DNA of 64,000 nt from Paragyromitra xinjiangensis. Lineage: Eukaryota; Ascomycota; Pezizomycetes; Pezizales; Discinaceae. A program made the position numbers and the translations under genes. The stretch covers positions 1,736,001 to 1,800,000 of the forward strand of contig JBCAMK010000008.1 in assembly GCA_038503065.1 (NCBI GenBank). The letters are read 5' to 3'. Positions 5,398 to 56,684 of the stretch are shown here, piece by piece; within the stretch, counting starts at the first letter, position 1; each line of letters starts with the position of its first letter. The notes under the pieces were generated by a model, which was given only the letters and a program-made list of their open reading frames with translations, was not told the origin of the DNA and made no database searches.

Positions 5398-6151
5398 GCA
5401 CGTGCGCCCCATTAGTTTTTGCGCTCTAATGTCGATTATATATTTACCGAGCAACGGCTAGCTTTTCTCCGCTATAGTACAGTCTTCGAAAAGAGTATAT
5501 GTATACTAGCTATAATGGATACTGCGAATAGCAATGCTTTTAATACTTAGCTTTTCCTTGCCCTGTACACTATTCTTAATTTCTGCTTACCCCCTAAACT
5601 GTCTGGTAATATTCAGCACCAGTCAGCTCAGATCATACCCTAGTACTAGAAATCAACTAGCTAGCTACTCCTTAAAAGTTTGTGGCTTAAATCCCTCACA
5701 ATTGAAACAAAATTTAACACTAAGGGTTTAAATATTCGAGTTTCTTCACTAAAGCCTAGTAACCCTCAGTCGAAGTTGTTACCCCACTAACGACAATAAG
5801 TGGGAGACAATGGATGAAACTTGGCGATGAGGGCTAATACAAACTAACTAATTGCCCAGAGCAGCTGTACTACTTGAACTCTCTAGCCAAGCAACAGGTC
5901 GATACACCAACCACTTCACAAGTTCATAAATATATCCACCTGAACCAACTTTAAAGCCACAATCACTCGAACTAAGCTCCAGCCAGCAAAACTAGCGAAG
6001 CAAGAATCCAGGTACTTTTCGATGAAAAGAGTAAACGCGGAATCTACCGCAGGATTTTTCTAGAGAAATTAAATACAAAATCCACCTCCTCTATCTATCC
6101 TCTAGGATGAATCGGGTTAAGATTACACCTCTTAAAGCCTCCCTTACACAT
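5398..6151. other. Convergent intergenic region
   Basis: This 754-bp interval lies between the 3' ends of a rightward gene (ending 5397) and a leftward gene (ending 6152). It should hold two terminators or polyadenylation sites. It is AT-rich, with no recognisable gene or repeat. Confidence 0.5.
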
Positions 6152-7278
6152 TTAGAATGTGAGCGTAGCACCGGCAGATCCGTAGACAGCAGCATAAACA
6201 CCTGAGGCAGCAACCTTAGAGTACGAGTAAGGAACGGTCTTCTGGGTACCGACGAGGGCGGTGTTGGAGGCACCACCGAAGTCATTGCCAGTGGGGTACT
6301 AAATACTATGTTAACAAGTAATAAAATAATACTTAGGTTATGATCACTCACAGCATAGCCGGCATCGGTTGAGTAAAGGCCATCCTCACAATCAACCATG
6401 ACATTGTTCTCGACAAGGAGCTGGGCACCATCACGGGTGTTGATGACATCGTTCACGGTGAGGTAGTAGTTGTTGACGATATGTCCAGTTCCGAAGCGGT
6501 AGGATGGGCCACGAGAGTTCAAGTTGAAGAAGAAGTTTTTGGCATAGGTAACGGTGAGATGGCCACTGTCTTCAGCACTGTTCGAGTCAGAGTGTCCGAC
6601 GAGGGATGCCTTCCAGTGGTCGTGGAGGAAGTTGTAAGTCAAACTGATATAGTCAGAACCGTGGGTGACGTCAAGCAGGCCGTCATAGTAATCCTAGGGG
6701 CCACAAGTTAGATTTTTAAGAGGAAGGCCGAAGGGGAAGGCATACCTTATCGTGGTCCAAGTCAGAAGACAGATCGCAATGATCAATCCAAACGTTCGAA
6801 GCAGCCTGGATACCAATAGCATCACCAGCAGCCGCAAGAACCTTCTTGATGGTCAGGTTGCGGATAATAACATTCTTAACGCTGATGACTCTAAGACCAA
6901 CACCAGAGAGGACTACAGACCCATGTATTAGTTGTTGTTCCATTAGCTTTATCAGAGGGAGAGAAACGTACTGGCGTTGTAGTCAGCACCAACAATGGTT
7001 TTATCGGCCGCAACCTTAATAACAGTGTTTCCAGTGATAGTTCCCTTGACCACGATAACTTTCTTCCCAGAAGAGGTGGCAGCAGTCTGAAGAGCAGCGA
7101 GAGATGACACGGTAGTAGTAGTACCACCGGCACCACCAGTCGTACCGCCATTCAGAGTGGCATAACCGAAATTTGCGGCCTCAGCAGCGGAAGCACGTTT
7201 GTTGAGCTTACCAACAGAAGACGGTATAGCTGCGGCAAAAGAGGCCAAGAAGCCAACGGTGAGAATGGAGAACTTCAT
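6152..7278 (-). CDS. Secreted pectate lyase, polysaccharide lyase family 1, 320 aa
   Basis: Four exons on the minus strand: 7278-6972, 6912-6746, 6693-6352 and 6298-6152, joining in phase to 320 residues. The N-terminus is a signal peptide (MKFSILTVGFLASFAAA), followed by a short propeptide ending in Lys-Arg at residues 27-28, a Kex2-type site. The parallel beta-helix lyase domain follows. The vWIDHCD motif lies at 143-149 and the DGLLDVTHGSDYIS calcium-binding segment at 162-175. Lys186 sits in DHWKASLVGHSD, and the catalytic RxPxxR motif runs from Arg219 to Arg224. PL1 pectate lyases cleave de-esterified polygalacturonan by calcium-dependent beta-elimination outside the cell. The length fits a single-domain fungal enzyme. 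No CBM is present. A hAT-type MITE sits about 760 bp upstream of the ATG. Pectin lyase is less likely given the calcium-site aspartates. Confidence 0.93.
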
Positions 7279-13006: not shown

Positions 13007-14288
13007 TTACAACTTCGGAGCCGCCTTCCCCCTCGCCCCAATATCTTCTTCCTTCCCTTTCTGTTCCGCAACTATCGTAACCAAAGTCCCCTTCTCCAGT
13101 GCACTCCTAACATTCTCGATAACTAAGCTCTCCATTTTATGCTGTATCTCCCGTCAGCTAGTCACATCGAGCCAAATAATGGAAGGCTTACCTGAGTCTC
13201 GATTGTAAAAGTCCCAATATGAGGAAGCAGTATTGTATCCTCTCTACCTATTAGCCCCTCATGTATCTTTGGCTCCTCTTCATATACATCCAATCCCACG
13301 CTGCCCACCTTCCCACTCTCCAACGCCTTCACCAGCTCCGCCTCATCAATTACTGCACCCCTTGCAGTATTCACAATTACCACGCCGTCCTTGCACATGG
13401 CCAACTCCTCCTTTCCCAAAAAGTGTCTTGTCTTTTCAGACAACGGTATGTGAACACTTAGTATATCACACATCCCCAAAAACTCCTGCAAGTCCGCAAT
13501 ATATTTCGCTCCAGTAGGATTTGAGGATTCTGGAACAGGCCTACGGTTGTGATAGACAAGCTTCATTCCGAAAGGTTGTGCGCGGAGTGAGAAAGCTGTA
13601 CCAATACCACCCATGCCGAGGATTCCGAGCACTTTCCCATCAGGGTCATGGCCGAGGGGATGGCCACCACGCCAAGTGCCAGAGCGGAGGGAAGCCTCAG
13701 CACGGTAAGTATGGCGGAGCGCCATAAGAAGGAGCATTATTGCGATGTTGGCGGTAGCATTATCGACAGCGGTGGGGGTGTGGGATACAAAGATTCCTAG
13801 TGTAATTCATGAGCTACCAGCAAAGCAAGAAAGCTGAGGGCTTTAGAACAAGGGAGTTGGGTTTACCGCGTGATGAGCAAGGATCGATATCAATCTGGTC
13901 ATAGCCAGCACCATTATGGCAGACAAACTTCACACTGCTTGGGAGGGCAGAAACGAGCTCTGCATCAAATCTTCCAGTGTACTATCGAGCTCCACGTCAG
14001 CTCTTGAGTGCAGCGGCCAAAAATCAGATTCTGGTCCAAACCTGTGCAGAGTCAAATGTACGGTAGATGGCCACAACGCCATCATATTTACCATTCTTGA
14101 AATCAGCAATTATGGACTCACGACTTCCACTTGTGATTTCCTAGAGCCTTAGGTTAGTTGAACGAAATTAAATAGCATTAATAGCCGATGAAAAGACATA
14201 CTTTCAGATCGGCAATGTCCTGGAGAGCTTCCCACTCTTTTCCCGCATGGTCAATCTTGCCGAGGAGGAGAGCAATAGGGCGTGGCAT
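13007..14288 (-). CDS. D-isomer-specific 2-hydroxyacid dehydrogenase (glyoxylate/hydroxypyruvate reductase-like), 346 aa
   Basis: Five exons on the minus strand: 14288-14202, 14140-14042, 13981-13867, 13796-13192 and 13141-13007. All phases join to 346 residues, close to the family norm. The split catalytic domain surrounds a central NAD(P)-binding domain. Visible motifs are the GMGGIG dinucleotide loop at about 161-166, the catalytic Arg in NTARG at about 246, the Glu in DVYEEEP at about 275, and the catalytic His in LPHIG at about 293. After the second beta strand the sequence reads HNRRP at about 183-187, with arginines where NAD-preferring members have Asp. That suggests NADPH use. The expected reaction is reversible reduction of a 2-keto acid such as glyoxylate or hydroxypyruvate to the D-2-hydroxy acid, in cytosol or mitochondria. 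No targeting peptide or C-terminal peroxisome signal is evident. The next gene, on the same strand, is another oxidoreductase. Confidence 0.93.
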
Positions 14289-14744: not shown

Positions 14745-15949
14745 TCAAATTGCCTCAAAAACCTTACCGCCACCTTGCTTCCAGTCCGGGAAACCAAAGT
14801 TAATGGGCCATGGCGGTGTTACAAATCTAAAACCCCACATATCAGCCATAACGTTAAACACAAAAAATATCAGGACCAACAAACCTCTTAGGGCCCTTCT
14901 CCTTGTAGATACTTCCCAGCAGTTCCAGGTCCTCGTCATCCAGCTTAAGTAACCTATTATTCTCATCGATTCTCGATGGAGTAACTGATTTCGCCAGCAC
15001 AACAATACCACGGTTGACTAGCGCACTCTTTCGTCAGTACTACAAACCAACCAGAAATATGGAAAAACGATTTAACTCACTATGATAGTTCAACAACACA
15101 GTCCCAACAGGAACACCATGCTTCTCTGCAACCTTCAGCACCTTCTCTTCCTTCAATAACGGCCCACCAGCAGATCCAAGCGGCGAATATGCAGTCACAA
15201 CAATCCCTTTCTCCTTACACAAAGCAACAACATCATCTTGTGGTAGCAGCGGATGGTTCTCGATCTGATTTACCGCTGGGACAACAGTGGTCTCTTCAAG
15301 AAGCTTGGTAAGGAACGGAACAGAATGATTAGAAACACCAATCGCCTTTTCATCAACCCATTAGCAAAACCCGAAACATCCGAGAGGGGGAGGGATATAG
15401 ATACCTTGACTTTCCCAGTCTTCAGCAACTTCTCCAGCTCTTTATACGTCTTGATGTAATCCCACCCAGCTTGTAGATCCCTCCCTCCATCTGGCTTGGT
15501 TGGGAATTTATCATGGTTCCCATTGGGATTGAGGGGTACGGGCCAATGCATCAAATACAGATCTACGTAGTCCAGCCCCAACAACTTTAGACTCTTATCA
15601 AGTGCCTCCTCGACACGTGAGTGATACGTCGACCATAATTTTGTCGTGATGAAGATATCTTCTCGCTTAACTCCCCCGGCAAAAGCTTCTGCAAGACCTG
15701 CACCAACTTCTTCTTCGTTGCCGTAGCACCAAGCACAGTCGATGTGGGTGTACCCTCCTTTGAGGAGAGCGTGAGCAACAGCTTTCTCGACGGCACCAGC
15801 AGGTGATTGCCAAGTACCTATCCAACGTGAAGAGCATTAGTAAACTAGCGAAACGAAGCCAGGAACAAGATGAGATGAGGAGCATTACCAAGCCCGATCG
15901 ACGGGATAGAAGCACCAGTGTTAAGTTTGAAGCTCGCGGGAACGGACAT
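14745..15949 (-). CDS. Aldo-keto reductase (aldose/glyceraldehyde reductase-like), 317 aa
   Basis: Five exons on the minus strand: 15949-15889, 15817-15405, 15345-15081, 15017-14885 and 14826-14745, joining in phase to 317 residues. It has the (beta/alpha)8 AKR layout. The N-terminal LNTGASIPSIGLGTW hairpin is present, and the catalytic tetrad is Asp47 and Tyr52 (in HIDCAWCYGNE), Lys80 (in ITTKLW) and His111 (in YLMHWP). The signature AIGVSNH lies mid-protein, followed by VNQIENHPLLPQ. A C-terminal LAKSVTPSRI segment matches the NADPH phosphate-binding loop. The length and motifs fit fungal glycerol dehydrogenase, aldose reductase or L-glyceraldehyde reductase enzymes, which reduce sugar aldehydes with NADPH in the cytosol. 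The exact substrate cannot be set from sequence. The gene lies 456 bp upstream of a co-oriented 2-hydroxyacid dehydrogenase. Confidence 0.94.
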
Positions 15950-24038: not shown

Positions 24039-27000
24039 TTAAGCAGTGAATTCCACATAGCGTCTGGTGACAGTACCGTTGTAGCTGTCGGTGGTGTTGG
24101 CGACGGGTGGTGCTGGGATGGAGTTGACAAGATAAGTCTGGTTTGTTTGGAGACCTCCCTCCTGTCCATCGGTAATGTCGTAATGCGTTTCTGCCTCGCC
24201 CCAATGCGCGAGCTGGGTATAGTCATCGGCATATGCGACTTGTGTACTCGAAATACCGACGGTCAGAGTCTTGAGGTCAGAAAGCGGCAATGAATAACCA
24301 CCCTGTTGTTTTAAACGTTAGTAACCATTTCTCTGATATTTAAAGCTGAGACTGACCTGTCTGATGACCCAGTGGAGGTTCTGCTTTAGGTATGGCACAA
24401 CAGTATCTGCATCCAACCCAATACCATTGTCGATCAAGGTTTGAGTCAACGGAACTGATCCCTTGATCACGTGGCTCCTAGTCGAGCTATCGTCACCAAA
24501 GGTTGCACATTGACCAACAAGCTGTGATGCTGTTTGCCAGTTGGTGACCTGCTCGGGGATATCTCCGATAAATATGAGGACAACAAATTGACCAATGATT
24601 TCAGACTGATCGTAAGCGATATGCGCGACCCATTCTTGACGAACAACACCTCCGGGAGGAGCAGGAGTGAGGTTGTTGCCGCCACTGTTGTTCAATGGGG
24701 GTCTGTAGATGTTATTGATTGCCTGGATCGCAAACAATTTAAGTTGATCGCTGCTTTGGCCTTTGTAATTCGACGGGACCTCTGGGTAGCTGTAACCGTA
24801 AGTGTAGATGTCTTGAGCGTCGCTGATATCCTTGGAGGTCCACTCGCTCCCATCACTATGTCGGAAGGGGTAGAGTGGGGTGTTGATATCATCAATATCA
24901 TTAGGTCCGACTTTACGGGCGAATGTTCCACTAGCTGCTTGAGGTACAATATCATTACCGGGCCAAGCTGCCTGGTATATAGCGGTCAAGCGGTCGATGT
25001 TGCAGTGACTATCGATACTGTTAGTATATTGATGGAGGTGTGTACTGCGAGTCACTTACTGGAACCAGAAGATAGGGTCAAAAGCAGCATAATCAACATA
25101 TGACATATGTCCCAATGATCCTCCCGTAATTGCTAAAGCATAATCATATTAGTGATCAATGAAATCCTTAGACAATGCCTTTAATGACCACTTACCGTGA
25201 ACGTCGTTGTGAATGTTTTCAACACTAGTCCAGGCATTTGGTGCTCCACCACCGTCCCATGCGTTGCTGGAGAATCCTTGGAATGTTGGGATAGAGAATA
25301 GGTTGTAGGTGCTTTGGCGACGACTGAGGGTTTAAATTTTATTAGTACCGTGTGCTCTTGAAATTTGCTAGGGTATTGTTAAACTTACGAGTCATATGTA
25401 TTAGCCATTCCTTGATCAGCCAAATCGTTGCGGGAAAGTCCATTTGCGTCCGGCTGGCGGCAGGTGTGGTCGGTATCGCGGAACTGGTTTCACGATTACG
25501 TTAGATTAAGAAGGGAGTCGATTAGGTGACTTAAGAAGCATAAACTTACAAATCCTGCATCAAAGTAGGTATCCCTATACTGCTGGTTCTTGAAGGTATA
25601 AGAATATAGGGGATTGGGGATAGTGGTTGTGGTAGCAGCCCCAGAACTGTCGGCTATGACGATAGTAACAGTCTCTACTGTCACAGATGTAGGCAAGTGA
25701 GACTTTGTTGAATCAGAGGACCAATCCCAATACCTGCAAGTTTTGCGATTAGAACTCATATCAGAGAAACTCGAGAGATTTATTGGTACTTACGGAATTC
25801 GGACTTTCTTCGCCGCATCTTGGTACTTCTGAGCTTCAGGTCCTTTGAACTTGTTGGCCACACTCACGGCATGTGCATAGAGAGTTTGCTGTGTTAAATT
25901 AGAAACGGATGGTTAGTAAAGGGCTCGAAGCGAAGTTATGAAGCGTGAATGCAGTATACCTCGACAAGGATCAAATAAGGACGATGCCAAGTTGCGAAAA
26001 GCGCACTGCTGTGTGTGCAGTAGCCCCGAGTAGGATCTTGTGTCGCGGTATCAACAGGGTATTGCCATGGAATGTGTGGGAGACCGTGTATTCCAGAGAT
26101 CTGATAGTAACTCAAATCTAACGATTCGTCGGTTGATTGCCAGTCATACAATGCCCAGAGGAAAATATTCCAAACATCCGGGTAGTTTGTCTGAAGCTCA
26201 TCAACTGGATAACGTGTCTCAAGTCCCGGAGCACCAATGACAGGAGTATACCCATTAGCGGTTGGCACCGGAAGATCAACATCTAAATGAGTAGACACTC
26301 CAGCGCTAGGGGTGACGACTACTATCGATGTGGTGGTCACATAAGGATTGGCAGGAGTATAGGTAGGTTCCTGGGTATCCGGAATGTAAGAAGAGACAGA
26401 TGGGGGAGCATAAGACGTATAGCTGGGGAGAGCAACAGTAGGGTATGCTACAGAAGTGTAAACCGAGCTACTTGTGTATACAATTGTGGGCAAGTAGATA
26501 GAGCTGGTAGCATATGTTGTGATCGGGGTCGTGTAGGTTGGGGATGTATCTACCGTGCTGCTATAGTACACCGAGCTGCTGCTGCTGTAATACACCGAGC
26601 TGCTGCTATAGTATACTGAGCTACTGCTGCTATAATACGTCGGGGAGTAGGTTGGGCTGCTGCTGCTGTAATACGTTGGGGAGTATGTTGGGCTGCTGCT
26701 GCTGTAATACGTCGGAGAGTAGGTTGGGCTACTATAGTACACTGAGCTGCTGCTGCTGTAATACGTCGGAGAGTAGGTTGGGCTTGAGGTATATACTGGA
26801 GGTGTATAGATCGATGTATATGGAGGTGGCGTGTACGCCGAAGTATATGGAGGTGGGGTATAGAGATACGATGAGCCTGGAGGAGTATATGGAGGTGGAG
26901 TATAGATCGAGGTGTACGGATCTAGGGTCTCAACCGATGTATATCCTGGGGGCGAGTACGGTGGGGGAGAGTAGACTGAAGTATACGCTGGGGGCGCATA

Positions 27001-28688
27001 GACAGATGTATAAGCAGGTGGTGTATAAGCATCAGATGACCCAGAGGGCGTATACACTGGTGGGGTGTAGACCGATGTGTACGCTGGAGGGGTGTAGACC
27101 GACGTATAAGCAATGGGTGGTGTGTACACGGAAGTATACGGCTTTGGCGAGTGCACAGAGGTGTATGGCTTGGGTGTATACGCTGAGCTGTAACCCGGTG
27201 GTGTGTACGGAGGTGGCGTGTAGACTGAAGTATACGCAGGAGGTGTATACACCGAAGTGATAGTCTCACACGGGGGCACATACGGCTTTGGGGTATAGAT
27301 GGAAGTGTATGGCTTTGGCGTATATGCCGAGCTATATCCCGAAGGGGTATACGCCGGTGGGGTGTAGACTTGAGTGTACGGTGGGGGTGTATAGACTGAG
27401 CTTGAGCTGCTGTAATAAGTCGGACTCGACGACGGATAATACACAGAGCTTGAGCTGCTGTAGTAAGTCGGAGTCGACGACGAATAGTACACGGAGCTTG
27501 AGCTGCTGCTGTAGTAAGTCGGACTCGACGACGGGTAGTATACAGAGCTTGAGCTGCTGTAGTAAGTCGGAGTCGACGACGAATAATACACAGAGCTGCT
27601 GGAGCTGCTATAGTACGTCGGGGTAGAAGATGAGTAATAAGTCGGAGTAGAAGATGAGTAATAAGTCGGGGTCGACGACGAGTACACCGGAGGGTTGCTA
27701 TAGTACACTGGCGGTGGTGTGTAGACAGAAGTATACGCAGGCGGTGTGTAGACTGGTGACGATGATCCCTTAGGAGTGTACGCTGGTGGAGTGTAAATTG
27801 AGGTATACACTGGGGGAGTGTACACCGACGGGGGCGGTGGTGTATAGACCGAAGTGTACGCAGGAGGGATATAGACAGAAGTATACGCAGGTGGTGTGTA
27901 AACAGGTGACAATGAATCCGAAGGTGTATACGCTGGTGGGGTGTATACTGAGGTATACGCCGGAGGAGTGTACACCGATGTATACGGCGGCACATAGACA
28001 GAAGTATACGCAGGAGGAGTATAGACAGAAGTATACGCTGGTGGTGTATATGCAGATGGTTCACCTGGGGGAGTGTACGCTGGCGGCGTGTAAACGGACG
28101 AATACGCCGGAGGAGTATACACAGATGAATAGCCCGCAGGTGGTGTATACACAGAAGTGTACACCGGGGGAACGTAGACAGAAGTATACGCTGGCGGTGT
28201 ATAGATAGACGGCGACCCTGAAGGTGTATACGGTGTTGGGGTAACAACTGAGGTATATACCGGAGGAGTGTACACAGATGTATAACCATATGGCACCGGT
28301 GGCACATAGACAGAAGTATACGCTGGAGGGGTATAAACTGAAGTATACGCCGGTGGCTGATAAGCAGAAGAGTATCCTGGTGGTGTATATGCTACCGGGG
28401 TGTGGACCGTAGTGTATGCCGGGGGGTGATAAGTAGTTGTGTAGTAATCGCTCTTCTTGATGCAACGAGAAAAGTCTATTAGGTAGATTAGTTAGGGAGG
28501 TCATTATCAGACATTTTCTCAGGAATTGACTAACAATCATCTATCGTAACGCAATCATATCCAGAGGGACATTCCGTCTCTCCAGAGTATCCTTTTCCTC
28601 CGCAAAGATCATATGGATTAAGACTGGCCCTAGCAACTCCGATGAGTACTAGGACGAGGGAGAGCACACCAAACGAGTGGGGTTCCAT
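24039..28688 (-). CDS. CBM1 plus Tyr/Pro-rich repeat tyrosinase, secreted, 1386 aa
   Basis: Nine exons on the minus strand: 28688-28535, 28475-25960, 25888-25794, 25733-25550, 25483-25389, 25323-25196, 25132-25060, 25008-24357 and 24302-24039. All phases join to 1386 residues. A signal peptide covers residues 1-21. A fungal CBM1 follows, with cysteines at 29, 40, 46 and 56 in the exact family spacing, interrupted by intron 1. Residues 60-692 are low-complexity repeats (Tyr-Thr-Pro-Pro and Tyr-Tyr-Ser-Ser types). The tyrosinase domain starts near 800. CuA has His848 (GIHG), Cys871-x-His873 (the thioether pair) and His882 (WHRPYL). CuB has His1053 and His1057 (HNDVH) and the HH pair at 1082-1083 (FWFHHCNIDR). 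Tyrosinases oxidise phenols and catechols to quinones with oxygen. A C-terminal cap-like segment follows. Ordinary fungal tyrosinases are far shorter and lack the CBM and repeats. Confidence 0.93.
26554..28452 (-). repeat. Coding repeat array: Tyr-rich YTPP / YYSS blocks
   Basis: This lies inside exon 2 of the tyrosinase. Four blocks alternate. A Pro-type block (YTPPAYTSVYTPP-like) covers about residues 60-308. A Ser-type block (YYSSSTPTYYSSS-like) covers about 309-413. Then come a second Pro-type block, about 414-613, and a second Ser-type block, about 614-692. My hand count gives about 122 Tyr in 590 residues, near 21 percent. Lys is rare, mostly in YTPKPY units, and there is a single Cys. 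Codons for the repeated residues vary freely at third positions (CCA, CCT, CCG and CCC for Pro). The repeat also opens long frames in other phases on both strands; these are shadows. Confidence 0.9.
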
Positions 28689-38551: not shown

Positions 38552-41500
38552 TCAAGTCGATTGAGATTTCTTCTTTCCTCCACGAAGCAATTCTTTTCCT
38601 TTGACGATGGCCTCTCTTCTCTCACCCACATTCTCCTCAGAAACTTCCACCTTGGCTATGTCCTCTACCACGTCTTTCTCTCCAGCGACATTTTCACCCA
38701 CTTCGGTTCGAACAAAGCGTCTTCCGAGCCGCGGCTCAGAGACGGTTTGTTTCGTGTGTTTCGTGACCGGGAACTCCATTCCCTCGGCGCCAGATTCCTC
38801 CGTGGCTTGTGGGATCTTCGCCTCGCGGATTGCTTTGAAAGTATTGATCGGTTCGTCGCACTCATCTTTATAATATTCGACCCTGCAGAAACCATCTTGA
38901 CCATACTCCGGGCGACTGGAGAGATATTTCTTAATTTTTGCGGCTGTTAGGAGTTTGATAAAGTTAACAAGAACTTTGACTTGTCTGGGAGGTGGTTTAT
39001 TGGTGAAGCTTGCTGTGGGATTTGGCGTAGCTTGTTCGAGAACCTCATCAAGAAGGCGAATTCCTTGAAGGTTTGAATCAGCTTGACCCCAGGTCTCAAT
39101 ATCTGCAACGACTTTTTTAATAAAGGCAAACCCTTCACCCTTCTCGCTCTCCTTTGTAATGGCCAAGAAATGGGTCATGTTCCGGCTTCCCAAAGCAGCT
39201 TCGCTATTGAAAGTGAGTAGAAGACGTCGAGTGGCCTTTTCTTCCGTCACTGCTTTTACTGTCAATGGATTGACTACCCGTTGGTCGTTGTGCCTCCAGT
39301 TGACAAGAACTCGTACCCCATCCAGGAAAAAAAAACCCGGGTCTTGATCATCAAAGCCACCATACCGACTCTGGTAAGGGCCAGAATATCCTTTACCGCT
39401 CTGCACAAGTTCCCAAAACCTACTTGCGCCTTCCATCGAGTAAAAGCTTACGTGGGCGTACCAACTGCTGTCATGTGGAACATCCCGCGAAGCCCGAGGT
39501 TCTCCCTTCGGGCCTTTCCATGCAGATGGATGTGGTGATAATCCAGAGATATAGATGTCCTCAAGCATCCCACCTTTCAATTGCTGAGTTACCGAATCAT
39601 AGGTTGCGGTTTTTGGGATGGGATGTAAGAAAAATTTTCGTCGGCCCCCTGTCTCAGATGGAGGCAGGGGGATCTCAGTCCTTGTTGTGTTCTGTTGTTT
39701 GATAGTACTCGAGGTGGTAGCTTTCTGGGAGTTGGGTTTTGGAGGAGCGACCTTAGGCAATGGAGCGATCGAAGTTTGGGGGTTAGTAACCTTTTTAAGT
39801 AAGGCGTCCCGGTAGTTAAGTACTTTAACTACTTTGGTGTCCTTGATGAGAAGGTCCGGAATACTGTGGAGATCAGGGGCGGGTACATCTTTAGAACTAA
39901 GTTTGTCTTCGGCCACAACCTCTGTTTTATGTTCAGGTACGAGCGAGGACTCTTTTATGGTTTCCTGTTCGACTTGCGTCTTGAGTTCTGTTTCAATTTC
40001 AGAATCTAGCACTGCTTCCTGGAAGAAGTTTTCGACTCGAGGATTAACCTCAGCTTTAACCTCTTGCTTTGCTTCTGGTTCAGCATCAGGCTGTGCTTGA
40101 TGCTGTAGCTTCGTTATTGGCTCTGGCAGCGATTCAATTACGACTTTGGGCCTAGCCTCCAAAGTGGGTTCGAGCTTGTTCCGCGACTTTGCCTTGGACT
40201 TAGTTTTCTTCGACTTGGCCTTAGATTTGCGTTTTGCCTTGAGCTCTAACGTGGCTCCGGTGACGAAAGAGGTTCCACAGGTTTCGGCAATCCCTGTGTC
40301 CCGGGAGGAAATCTCGGTGTCCTCGGCCCAATTAAGCGATTTGACATCAACTTGTGTATCTTTGACGTGTTTTGGAAGTTTAACAATAAGTTCGACATCT
40401 CTAAACAATTCATCCTCCCCATCTGGTTCGCGGATATCAGAAGCTTGCTCGGGGTCAACATTGGTGGCTTCGGAAAGATTCTCAACAGGTTGTGGAGCAA
40501 CGCATTCCGGAAATTTAACCATGTTTGGAGAACCATCTTCGAAAAATTGAACGTTATTGGTAATGGTTTGTGTAGATTCATCTAGAGAAGCCGCCCGGGA
40601 ATCCTCAACCGGTGGCTCGCTCTCAATGATATGTGGGAATTCCACGTTGGTGACTTCCCTGGTTTTAATCTCTGGGATGATATGGTCTTCTGCCAGTTCC
40701 AAAACGGCATCTACTTCCACTTGATGTTTATCCAAAATAGTAATAGCCTCGCCTTCAGCGGTGGTATCCGTACCCTCTGCCATATCCTTAGAGCTCAGGG
40801 TTACACAGTGTTTGACGTGAGCCCCCTTGTTGGCGACTGGCGTAAACTTTTTCTCCCAATTCATGTTTCCTGGTACCTTCCCAATGAATTCTTTCGAAGA
40901 CTCCTCGAAGATGTGTGGATGATGTAGGTTAGAGCACGAGCAATCACCGTCTCTACAAGATTTAAGACTCTGAGTCTTTTGTGTAAGGCTATCTGGAACT
41001 TGCCAGGCCATCGGATCACAATCATACATAAACGGGGTAGTGGAGGCCTTTGGGGAACAGGGAGACGCTACTTCAGGATTAAGGTAGAATCCAACGTACT
41101 CGTCTGCTTCTGAGACCTCCGAGGAATCGATTCCCCGGACAAGCACGAAGTCCTCAGCCTTGGGATTGAACGTGAACCTAGATTTACGGGTTTCGCTAAC
41201 TGAATAAAGTGAAGAAACTTGTCCAGGTTTTAAAGAGTCTGAGTAGCTTGGCTCATGGACTGATTCGACAATTAGAGGAGTTGAAGTAACAATCAACGGC
41301 GATGATGACCTAACCATGCCGGTAGAGGTGGAGGCCGGGCTCAGACTCGCAGAGTCAACACTAGAGAGTGGTTCTGGGTAGGAGTCAAAGTTTTTGTCGC
41401 CACTGATCCGCCTCGTATCGGACTTGTTTGATCTTCTTTCGACCCAGGTGATGTCCCGGATCGCGGGCTCGATCATGGTAGGTCTTGCGAGATGCTGTTT

Positions 41501-42490
41501 GCGACTCCTAGTGAAGGGAGGTACCCTCACCCCAGGCGGCGAACGATCATTGCTGTGATACGGATATTGGTTTTCTTGTCGACGCATGCCCTGGTATCGG
41601 CCTTGATATGGCTGTTGCTGCATACTATTCACCGGGTTTGGGAGGTTCCTGACGTCTTGGCTAGCGTAACGGTTGTCAAACCGCCTGTTGCTGTTTGCTG
41701 TGTGAGAGTTGCCTTCCATAGTTTGAAGGTTACAGGTTGATGGAGGGGTTGTTGCTGTACGATTACTATGTTTAGGGGAACCAGATTTTTGCTCCTCACT
41801 CCACTGCGAGTTAGAACGGGAGTCACTACTGTAAGTGCTCCAGTCTGATTTCTTCGATCCTTCAAAAAAAGTGAGATTTGGTGGATTGGCGCCTGGAAAG
41901 GTAGGTGCTCTATGCCTCTTTAGCTGGGGGAGGGAGGCTGGTTTCCCGAATACAGGTACCCCAGGTAGGGGATAGCTCTGGTTGACAGGATCAACTGTAG
42001 AGTGTATAGGAGAATTCTGCGGTACTGCCATATACTGCGAAGGTGGGGACTGCCAATAAATTGGTGAATAGCCTCCGTGATGCGTGTAGGTTTCTCCTGA
42101 AAATTTCAGTCAGATAAGTAGAATGGGAAAACAAAGAGATCTAGAATGGGTTCACTAACGAGGAGTAGGAGACCCGTTTTTCATTGAGTGGTCATAAAAA
42201 TTAGTACTGTAATCGGAATTGGTTGGATAACCCGGCATCGGAATTTGTAGGCCCAAGTTTTGATAGTGGGGCTGATAGTTAGGATTTAAATTCTGTGGGT
42301 ACCAGCCACTGCTTTCATGGCCTCCCTCATATGGATTGGCCATATTAACGTGCATTCCATGCTGATATATCTGCCCATAGCACGGCATAACAGATGGGGC
42401 AGCAGGATATGGTGGGGGAACAAAATTCCGGGGAATAGGCATGAAGCTATTATTGTGATAGGGTGGCGACCCACTCGGAGTACGAGACAT
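38552..42490 (-). CDS. Large unrecognised protein with C-terminal RNA-binding-like region, 1291 aa
   Basis: Two exons on the minus strand, 42490-42160 and 42096-38552, with a GTTAGT donor and CAG acceptor, give 1291 residues from the first ATG. I do not recognise the family. The N-terminal third is disordered and rich in Pro, Tyr, Ser and Gln. The middle is acidic, with many Val/Glu-Pro stretches. Near residues 732-750 is a long Lys/Arg/Ser run that looks like a nuclear signal or nucleic-acid contact. Residues 929-1200 look folded. Two segments there (around 'EDIYISGLSP' to 'GVRVLVNWR', then 'ATRRLLLTFNSE' onward) have the strand-helix rhythm of RRM-like domains, but the RNP motifs are not classical. 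The C-terminus is charged. The gene is divergent from the unknown gene at 43115 and shares a 624-bp promoter region with it. An RNA-binding or regulatory role is inferred weakly. Confidence 0.85.
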
Positions 42491-54707: not shown

Positions 54708-56684
54708 ATGGCGGGCCAAGCACTTCCAGAATATGATTACATATTCGCACTTGCCATGCTCTTTGCATTCTTGGTAAGAAGTCCTCCCATTACTCCAAGA
54801 ATACTGTTTAATCTCCCTTCTTCGCTGGACAGGATGCATGGAACATTGGCGCCAACGATGTAGCAAACTCGTTTGCAACTTCAGTTTCTTCACGGTCCCT
54901 TACTCTCTTGCAAGCCATGATGGTTGCTACTGTCATGGAGTTCTGCGGCGCTTTGCTTGTGGGTGCTCGTGTTGCTGATACGATTAGAAGCAAAATCGGT
55001 AAGCCTCGGGACTTGGAGACATGAGCTAGGGAGTAAAACTAATTTGGGTGGGGTTGTAGTTAAGGTTGATCTTTTCATCGAGCAACCTGGCGTGCTTATG
55101 TTGGGGATGTTATGTGCTTTGATCGGCTCCTCGACTTGGCTTACTATCGCAACCTCTATCGGGTTGCCAGTATCTACCACGTAAGTTTTACCGCAGCTCG
55201 AGTTTTTAAGATAGAAGGTCTATTTCCTGACGCTCGTGTAGCCATTGTATCGTCGGTGGTGTCATTGGCATGGGGATTGCTACGGTTGGAGTGGATGGTG
55301 TGGTCTGGGGGTGGGAGGGTAAGGGTGTGGCTCAAATCTTCGCTTCCTGGATCATCGCTCCTGCTATCGCCGGGTCGTTCGCTGCTATCATCTTCACGAT
55401 TACTAAATATGGTGTCTTGAAACGATCCAATCCTCTGAAATGGGGTATGGTGATGGTTCCAGTTTACTTCGCCATCACGTCTGGGATCTTGACTATGCTT
55501 ATCGTTTGGAAGGGAGTGAGTAACGAAATGTATCCAAGTGAAACTCTTGAACCCAAACTAACTATTAACCGTTGTAGGCTGCTTCCTTGAACCTAGATGA
55601 CTGGACTGGCGGACAGATCGCTGGTACTATTTTCGGAGTTGCCTTTGGAGTCATGGCCCTCGTCATCATCTTCTTCCTTCCATACGTCTATAGGAAGTTA
55701 GTCAAAGAGGACTGGACCATGAAATGGTACCATGTCCCCTTGGGGCCTCTCCTCCTCAGCCGTGGTCCTGTTCCAGAAGCCCCCGAAGGCGCACAGGCTC
55801 AAATCGTCCAAGACTACTACCGTGGTCACGCTACCCGTGAAGATCTCGAAGCAGCGAATATCAAAACTTCCACAATCAACGAACTCGAAAGTCAAAAGGC
55901 CGAGCCGGAAGGCAGCCTCCCTCGGGGATCGGATGAGATCTCGGCCGCAAAACAAACAGCGCAAGCGAACAGCAAGTCTCTCGATGAAGTTGAAAAAACT
56001 GATGTCGGCCCTTGGTATGCCCCTAAAAACCTCTTGAAGATTGTCATCGACGCCTTCATGCACGGTGTTCGCGTGGATGTTGTCTCTGAGCAGTCTCGTG
56101 GGTCGAAACTCTCCGGTGATATCTCAGATATGCATGCCCGTGCTGCTCACTTCGATAATAAAACCGAACATCTCTATTCCTTCCTCCAGATCTTAACTGC
56201 TGCTACCTCCTCGTTCGCCCATGGCGCTAATGATGTTGCTAACGCTACTGGCCCTCTCGCTACTGTCTTTCTGGTTTGGCATACTGGTACTGCTAATAAG
56301 AAGGCGAGCGTTCCGCTTTGGGTCCTAGCTTATGGTGGTGCCGCAATCGTTATCGGATTGTGGACCTACGGGTACAACATCATGCGGAATCTTGGGAACC
56401 GGTTGACGCTTCACTCTCCTTCTCGCGGGTTCTCGATGGAGCTCGGGTCCGCCGTCACGGTTGTTCTTGCGACCCGTCTGGCTCTTCCGGTTTCTACTAC
56501 TCAGTGTATTGTTGGTGCTACTATGGGTGTTGCGTTTTGTAATGGTGATTTCAAGGCTCTTAATTGGAGGATGATTGGGTGGTGTTATGGAGGTTGGATT
56601 TTCACCCTGCCGATTGCGGGGATTATTTCTGGGTGTTTGATGGGCATTATCATTAATGCTCCGCGATGGGATGGGCCGGCTTAG
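54708..56684 (+). CDS. PHO89: Pho89/PHO-4-type sodium-coupled phosphate permease, 577 aa
   Basis: Five exons: 54708-54773, 54833-54998, 55060-55180, 55242-55515 and 55578-56684, all in phase, give 577 residues, close to yeast Pho89. This is the inorganic phosphate transporter (PiT, PF01384) family. The signature GANDVAN occurs twice, near 28-34 and 425-431, in the two inverted-topology halves, each followed by a PVSTT(H/Q)CIVG segment. Many membrane helices surround a hydrophilic cytoplasmic loop (about 250-390) rich in Glu, Lys and Ser. The family imports phosphate with sodium at the plasma membrane, and fungal members are induced by phosphate starvation or alkaline pH. The CACGTGGG site at 54369 fits that regulation. 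The symbol follows the family; the Neurospora counterpart is pho-4. No truncation or odd residue is seen. Confidence 0.95.

Follow-up and report, generated by a model that had tools for sequence, protein, structure and literature searches.

A tyrosinase gene of Paragyromitra xinjiangensis that appears to join a CBM1 module, a long tyrosine-rich repeat and the enzyme in one chain

Can a secreted enzyme carry its own substrate in the same polypeptide? This question is raised by a gene of the fungus Paragyromitra xinjiangensis (Pezizales; Discinaceae) that occupies positions 24039..28688 on the minus strand of a 64,000-nucleotide stretch (GenBank assembly GCA_038503065.1, contig JBCAMK010000008.1, positions 1,736,001 to 1,800,000), hereafter called the window. 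An earlier note on this DNA described a signal peptide, a carbohydrate-binding module of family 1 (CBM1), a tyrosine (Tyr)-rich repeat and a tyrosinase domain in one gene model. As judged from the sequence, these parts do stand in that order in one gene, with the active-site residues in place and with no dibasic site before the enzyme. We give an even chance to the reading that the product is a secreted, latent and wall-anchored tyrosinase whose own tract would be oxidized to 3,4-dihydroxyphenylalanine (DOPA) and quinone, cross-linking the protein into the wall.

The gene model of the earlier note proved exact to the base. When its nine exons (28688-28535, 28475-25960, 25888-25794, 25733-25550, 25483-25389, 25323-25196, 25132-25060, 25008-24357 and 24302-24039, all on the minus strand, as are the protein features given below) are spliced at the proposed junctions, they form a single unbroken frame of 1386 amino acids. 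All eight introns are of the GT-AG type and measure 51-71 nucleotides. The start Met lies in the context ATCATGG, and a TATATAA sequence can be picked out by eye upstream of the gene at 28807-28801. A hydrophobic stretch, likewise judged by eye, forms an apparent signal peptide at about residues 1-21 (28626..28688), in agreement with the earlier note.

The CBM1 module (residues 26-57; 28459..28613) is split by intron 1 and is reconstituted across the exon junction when this intron is removed. Pfam CBM_1 matches residues 26-53 with 34.1 bits (cut-off 20.6), and the spliced translation carries the four predicted Cys residues, at positions 29, 40, 46 and 56, along with an aromatic face. The module can be aligned to that of cellobiohydrolase I (1cbh), where Tyr26, Tyr52 and Phe53 occupy the tyrosine positions that we take to be the CBM1 binding face. 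The module might bind cellulose or chitin. There are 26 CBM1 matches in the genome of this species (48.2 Mb in 22 contigs), including that of the tyrosinase gene itself, and thus wall-binding proteins are common there.

The module is followed by the Tyr-rich repeat (residues 57-770; 26320..28461), in which two types of unit, YTSVYTPP (12 exact copies) and YYSS (17), are arranged in blocks. Its 714 residues include 144 Tyr (20.2%), 157 Ser, 145 Pro and 118 Thr, as well as 7 Lys, 3 His and 1 Cys. There is no Phe, Trp or Arg, so Tyr is the sole aromatic residue. The earlier density of about one Tyr in five is borne out, but the repeat is somewhat longer than the 630 or so residues first proposed; residues 56-690 contain 133 Tyr among 635 positions. 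Tyr is enriched in the repeat (144/714) relative to the remainder of the protein (41/672; Fisher p = 5e-15), and its codons comprise 79 TAT and 65 TAC. A loose search for YTSVYTPP gave 41 units, of which 37 retain the second Tyr (20 TAT, 17 TAC) and 34 the first, figures that are upper bounds because such matching is biased towards units with Tyr. A Cys-rich open frame that runs antisense to the repeat (26523-27260, plus strand) is most likely a by-product of the repeat codons.

Carriers of similar repeats are rare in the sets that we searched. A 260-residue piece of the repeat gave five matches in the P. xinjiangensis genome, all at the tyrosinase locus and none elsewhere. A search with residues 1-790 among 7975 scored candidate proteins of 762-2425 amino acids, a range that shorter or longer carriers would escape, gave three matches, only one of which (P0001) is a real relative of the repeat. 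The other two, P0138 and P0139 from Orbilia oligospora, were rejected, as they matched through many CBM1 copies rather than through Tyr repeats. In their own right, these are protein predictions of about 2,300-2,400 residues in which a match to an AA9-type lytic polysaccharide monooxygenase is followed by at least two dozen or so CBM1 modules on Ser/Thr linkers. By our count there are 12 other tyrosinase places in the genome, and a six-frame reading of stretches around ten of them (L001-L008 and L029-L034; the other two lie on C18 and C4) gave no convincing CBM1 and no long Tyr-rich frame. Weak signals were a CBM1-like cysteine pattern in an 82-residue frame, found in both L034 and L004 (a single place), and two short frames (45 and 74 residues) in which 7 Tyr fall within 50 residues (L032/L005 and L031).

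The enzyme part has the hallmarks of a fungal tyrosinase with a C-terminal domain. Pfam Tyrosinase matches residues 840-1095 (24969..26112, introns included) with 153.9 bits (cut-off 22.6), and Tyrosinase_C, a probable latency domain, matches residues 1207-1316 (24252..24635) with 89.9 bits (cut-off 26.9). All six copper histidines (H848, H873, H882, H1053, H1057 and H1083) are present, and Cys871 supplies the Cys of the Cys-x-His pair. These roles were assigned by aligning the protein with a known tyrosinase and from the columns of 47 aligned relatives, and together with the Pfam matches they uphold the earlier description of the domain. The copper-B (CuB) site includes Glu1050, His1053 and Asn1054. 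Among the 47 relatives, this Glu is invariant and Asn follows the first CuB histidine (HisB1) in 27. A Glu three residues before HisB1 and an Asn directly after it are associated with monophenolase activity in the available part of one report (PMC8049008), and from Glu1050 and Asn1054 such activity is likely here.

Among solved structures, the top-scoring tyrosinase is 4oua_B (2.4e-49), although three multi-domain hemocyanins rank higher in summed score. The abPPO4 enzyme of Agaricus bisporus (4oua, 5m6b) and the MelB pro-tyrosinase of Aspergillus oryzae (3w6w) share the core and the C-terminal domain with the P. xinjiangensis protein, but their chains have neither a CBM1 nor a Tyr-rich repeat. 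In abPPO4, HisB1 is followed by Asp rather than Asn.

Could the model have fused two adjacent genes by mistake? It was drawn from the genome sequence, and several features of the locus speak for one gene. Exon 2 sits within an 851-residue open frame that carries both the repeat and the copper-A site. Met occurs only at positions 1, 1009 and 1067, with none between residues 2 and 1008, and so an intact enzyme could not start downstream of the repeat, given that the copper-A histidines stand at 848, 873 and 882. Removal of intron 1 restores the CBM1, and P0001 is a similar fusion of repeat and enzyme. We reject the artefact on the strength of the open frame, the Met positions and P0001, and regard it as unlikely in the extreme.

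P0001 is a protein of 957 amino acids with a similar signal region and an enzyme part 62% identical to that of P. xinjiangensis. The two proteins have YTSVYTPP and YTPSG units in common. P0001 differs in having no CBM1 and no YYSS units (17 in P. xinjiangensis), and its repeat is shorter, with 45 Tyr, 3 Phe and no Trp in 333 residues. Tyr is again concentrated in the repeat (45/333 versus 27/624 elsewhere; p = 1e-6). In the predicted model of P0001, whose best structural match is 4oua_B, the predicted local distance difference test score is mostly about 30 in the repeat and above 90 in most blocks of the enzyme, so that the repeat appears disordered in the model. The record is probably a transcript, because its coding frame leaves only 322 of 3196 bases to spare, whereas the introns in the enzyme part of the P. 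xinjiangensis gene total 430 bases.

A chain encoded by one gene might still be cut after secretion, such that the CBM1-repeat part and the enzyme act apart, or the former serves as a removable pro-region. The relatives offer grounds for this idea, as KR or RR lies between CBM1 and enzyme in four of the five that carry a CBM1 above the Pfam cut-off. More broadly, of the 86 relatives (P0001 left out) whose N-terminal region could be used, 56 have KR or RR ahead of the enzyme when the count stops 55 residues short of the GIHG motif; these 86 come from 136 relatives, of which 132 start with Met, and the rest of the difference consists of sequences with an N-terminal region under 15 residues or with no motif. 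In contrast, the P. xinjiangensis protein has neither dipeptide up to residue 845, nor does P0001 up to residue 414, which makes such cleavage improbable here, although another protease might act. If KR and RR are cut by a Kex2-type protease, the relatives would shed their CBM1 and the P. xinjiangensis protein would keep it.

We return to the idea of a substrate carried in cis, which is most likely the best-fitting reading of the Tyr-only aromatic tract, the Glu and Asn residues at the CuB site and the lack of a dibasic site before the enzyme. The CBM1 would dock the protein on cellulose or chitin, and removal of the C-terminal domain outside the cell would free the di-copper site. The freed enzyme would then convert Tyr residues to DOPA and o-quinone, both in its own repeat and in repeats nearby. 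These products would join to one another through their aryl rings or react with wall amines and thiols, including those of chitosan, and the outcome would be a fixed, tanned and perhaps pigmented layer. Coupling among aryl groups or with outside partners would be expected because the repeat contains few Lys and Cys residues. In its fullest form, to which we lean slightly less than not, this reading describes a natural one-chain curing material composed of an anchor, a latent oxidase and a substrate of 144 Tyr: CBM1 would stay joined to the enzyme, the linker would have grown into a substrate, and the activated protein would oxidize its own tract and weld itself, along with neighbouring molecules, to a polysaccharide surface.

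Such a protein would resemble other cured materials by composition. Mussel foot proteins and the Tyr-rich eggshell proteins are DOPA- or Tyr-rich and are cured through DOPA, as proposed here, and the P. xinjiangensis protein, like DOPA-cured adhesives, has Tyr-rich repeats. In the mussel and eggshell systems the oxidase is a separate protein, unlike the arrangement described here. The accessible text of PMC11608171 notes diDOPA in mussel foot proteins and cross-linking by tyrosinases of proteins that bear accessible tyrosines. For nematode-trapping fungi, the portion of PMC3828140 at hand speculates that tyrosinase cross-links trap adhesins or adhesive layers.

Several observations weigh against this reading and temper our confidence. 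The few Lys, His and Cys residues of the repeat permit few links between quinones and nucleophiles within it, and the active site may be out of reach of some repeat Tyr in cis. Asp50 and Arg55 of the CBM1 replace Asn and Gln of 1cbh, which bears on the strength of the putative binding. P0001 has no CBM1, so anchoring is not conserved together with the repeat. In a test that shuffled whole proteins 200 times and scored Tyr in 60-residue windows, P0105 was the only one of 137 relatives to stand out; P0001 did not. That dibasic sites are absent follows in part from the repeat having no Arg, and the count in relatives depends on the boundary chosen (77/105, 57/93 and 43/84 at offsets of 30, 50 and 60 residues). 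Finally, secretion, activity and curing are each predicted from sequence.

What else could the repeat be for? Repeats of Pro, Ser, Thr and Tyr are reminiscent of plant extensins, and the tract might be a structural or adhesive spacer whose Tyr residues serve stacking, self-association or other oxidases, leaving the tethered tyrosinase to act on small phenols. The tyrosinases of nematode-trapping fungi belong to the same family, and some have long N-terminal linkers, those of Orbiliomycete relatives being rich in Thr and Ser, which suggests that plain spacers are in normal use. A spacer needs no Tyr, however, and these linkers hold at most 3% Tyr except in P0112 (9.4%) and P0121 (8.3%). Moreover, the Tyr-rich linker arose on a phenol oxidase, and to a lesser degree this is also true of P0041, P0055 and P0053. 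We consider the spacer a possible but doubtful explanation.

A second alternative is an ordinary secreted tyrosinase of the melanin type with a CBM1 and a glycosylated linker, in which Tyr was raised by repeat expansion and has no role. The family is common, as 880 of 7998 scored candidates match at E <= 0.001. The repeat, being tandem DNA, can expand by slippage, and the available portions of PMC4219462 and PMC8675245 treat the tyrosinases of truffles and morels as enzymes of melanin formation. Yet both Tyr codons are freely used while Phe and Trp are absent from all 714 residues, and P0001 retains similar units at another length. This explanation seems to us unlikely, and less probable than the spacer.

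In the wider family, the nearest named relatives by identity are from Choiromyces (56%) and Rhizina (51%), followed by Wilcoxina and Pyronema (40-44%). A domain search found CBM_1 above the cut-off in the same chain as tyrosinase in 5 of 30 relatives scanned (P0039 from Wilcoxina, P0050, a partial sequence from Tricharina, P0041, P0051 and P0065), and 3 more of the 30 have matches below the cut-off (P0031, P0043 and P0111). The ten relatives of the later scan gave no CBM_1 match, and P0119, which has a CBM1-like cysteine pattern, was rejected for the same reason. LysM modules suspected by eye in Orbiliomycete N-termini gave no Pfam match at E 0.5 in P0006 and P0009. Thus, judging by these matches, an N-terminal CBM1 is a recurring feature of the family. 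The five relatives resemble the P. xinjiangensis protein in their domain order, but their N-terminal parts are short and contain no more than 15 Tyr.

The unusual part, on sequence comparison, is the repeat, a linker turned into a tract with Tyr as its sole aromatic residue. Among 31 relatives with N-terminal regions of at least 120 residues, Tyr makes up no more than 3.6% of the region in 26; the exceptions are P0001 (13.6%), P0041 (11.9%), P0055 (10.4%), P0112 (9.4%) and P0121 (8.3%), as against 19.4% in P. xinjiangensis. With linker Tyr counts of 15/133 in P0041, 26/257 in P0055 and 10/115 in P0053, a smaller form of the design is present in a few relatives. P0055, from a Watsoniomyces obsoletus metagenome-assembled genome, has a Cys-rich N-terminal module and DYPPTGNPP repeats ahead of its tyrosinase, a comparable plan built on another repeat. 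Separately, in the tyrosinases P0105, P0112, P0115, P0121, P0124 and P0126, of which the named ones are from Orbiliomycetes, the C-terminal domain or its immediate surroundings contain 14-20 Tyr per 100 residues. We did not count these Tyr-rich C-termini as convergence, as they overlap or adjoin the Tyrosinase_C match.

A quick tree, with support from the Shimodaira-Hasegawa-like approximate likelihood ratio test only, groups the P. xinjiangensis protein with P0001 and the Choiromyces sequence (support 99), the last being a partial record that begins at the enzyme, with its N-terminus outside the record. This group falls in a half of 16 rows that includes P0041, P0053 and P0055 (support 89). 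For linkers of at least 30 residues (17 of 50 rows were dropped as too short or empty), Tyr content differs between this half and the rest at p = 0.036 (13 versus 20 rows), a weak result given that the rows are related and the question was posed post hoc. The presence of a CBM1 above the cut-off needs at least five changes on the tree, and so a single origin with losses and repeated gain look the same on it.

The earlier note was aware of no fungal protein described as having this architecture. Its claim is only partly right. The full trio with a repeat of such size we have seen in the P. xinjiangensis protein only; CBM1 with tyrosinase occurs in several other fungi, including Pezizomycetes, and a repeat with tyrosinase in P0001. 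Whatever the mechanism, CBM1 on tyrosinases recurs in the family, and no printed description of this fusion or of the repeat-tyrosinase fusion was found among the matches listed, which cover few subscription journals. If the proposed mechanism is true, the protein would be a self-contained glue, an enzyme that brings both its substrate and its address. It would be of use for enzyme-cured materials and for learning how fungal walls are tanned or how fungi adhere to plant material. An existing conjecture, in which fungal tyrosinases are the cross-linkers of wall or adhesin proteins, would also become directly testable within one protein.

The surroundings of the gene are mixed. An open frame of 1,185 amino acids (38555-42109, minus strand) has no Pfam match at E 0.001. 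Pfam matches of the neighbouring frames in the window form no evident cluster with the tyrosinase and comprise a pectate lyase (6094-6693), a 2-hydroxyacid dehydrogenase (13165-13806) and an aldo/keto reductase (15273-15836) on the minus strand, and a cytochrome P450 (19385-20230) and a PHO4 transporter (55578-56681) on the plus strand.

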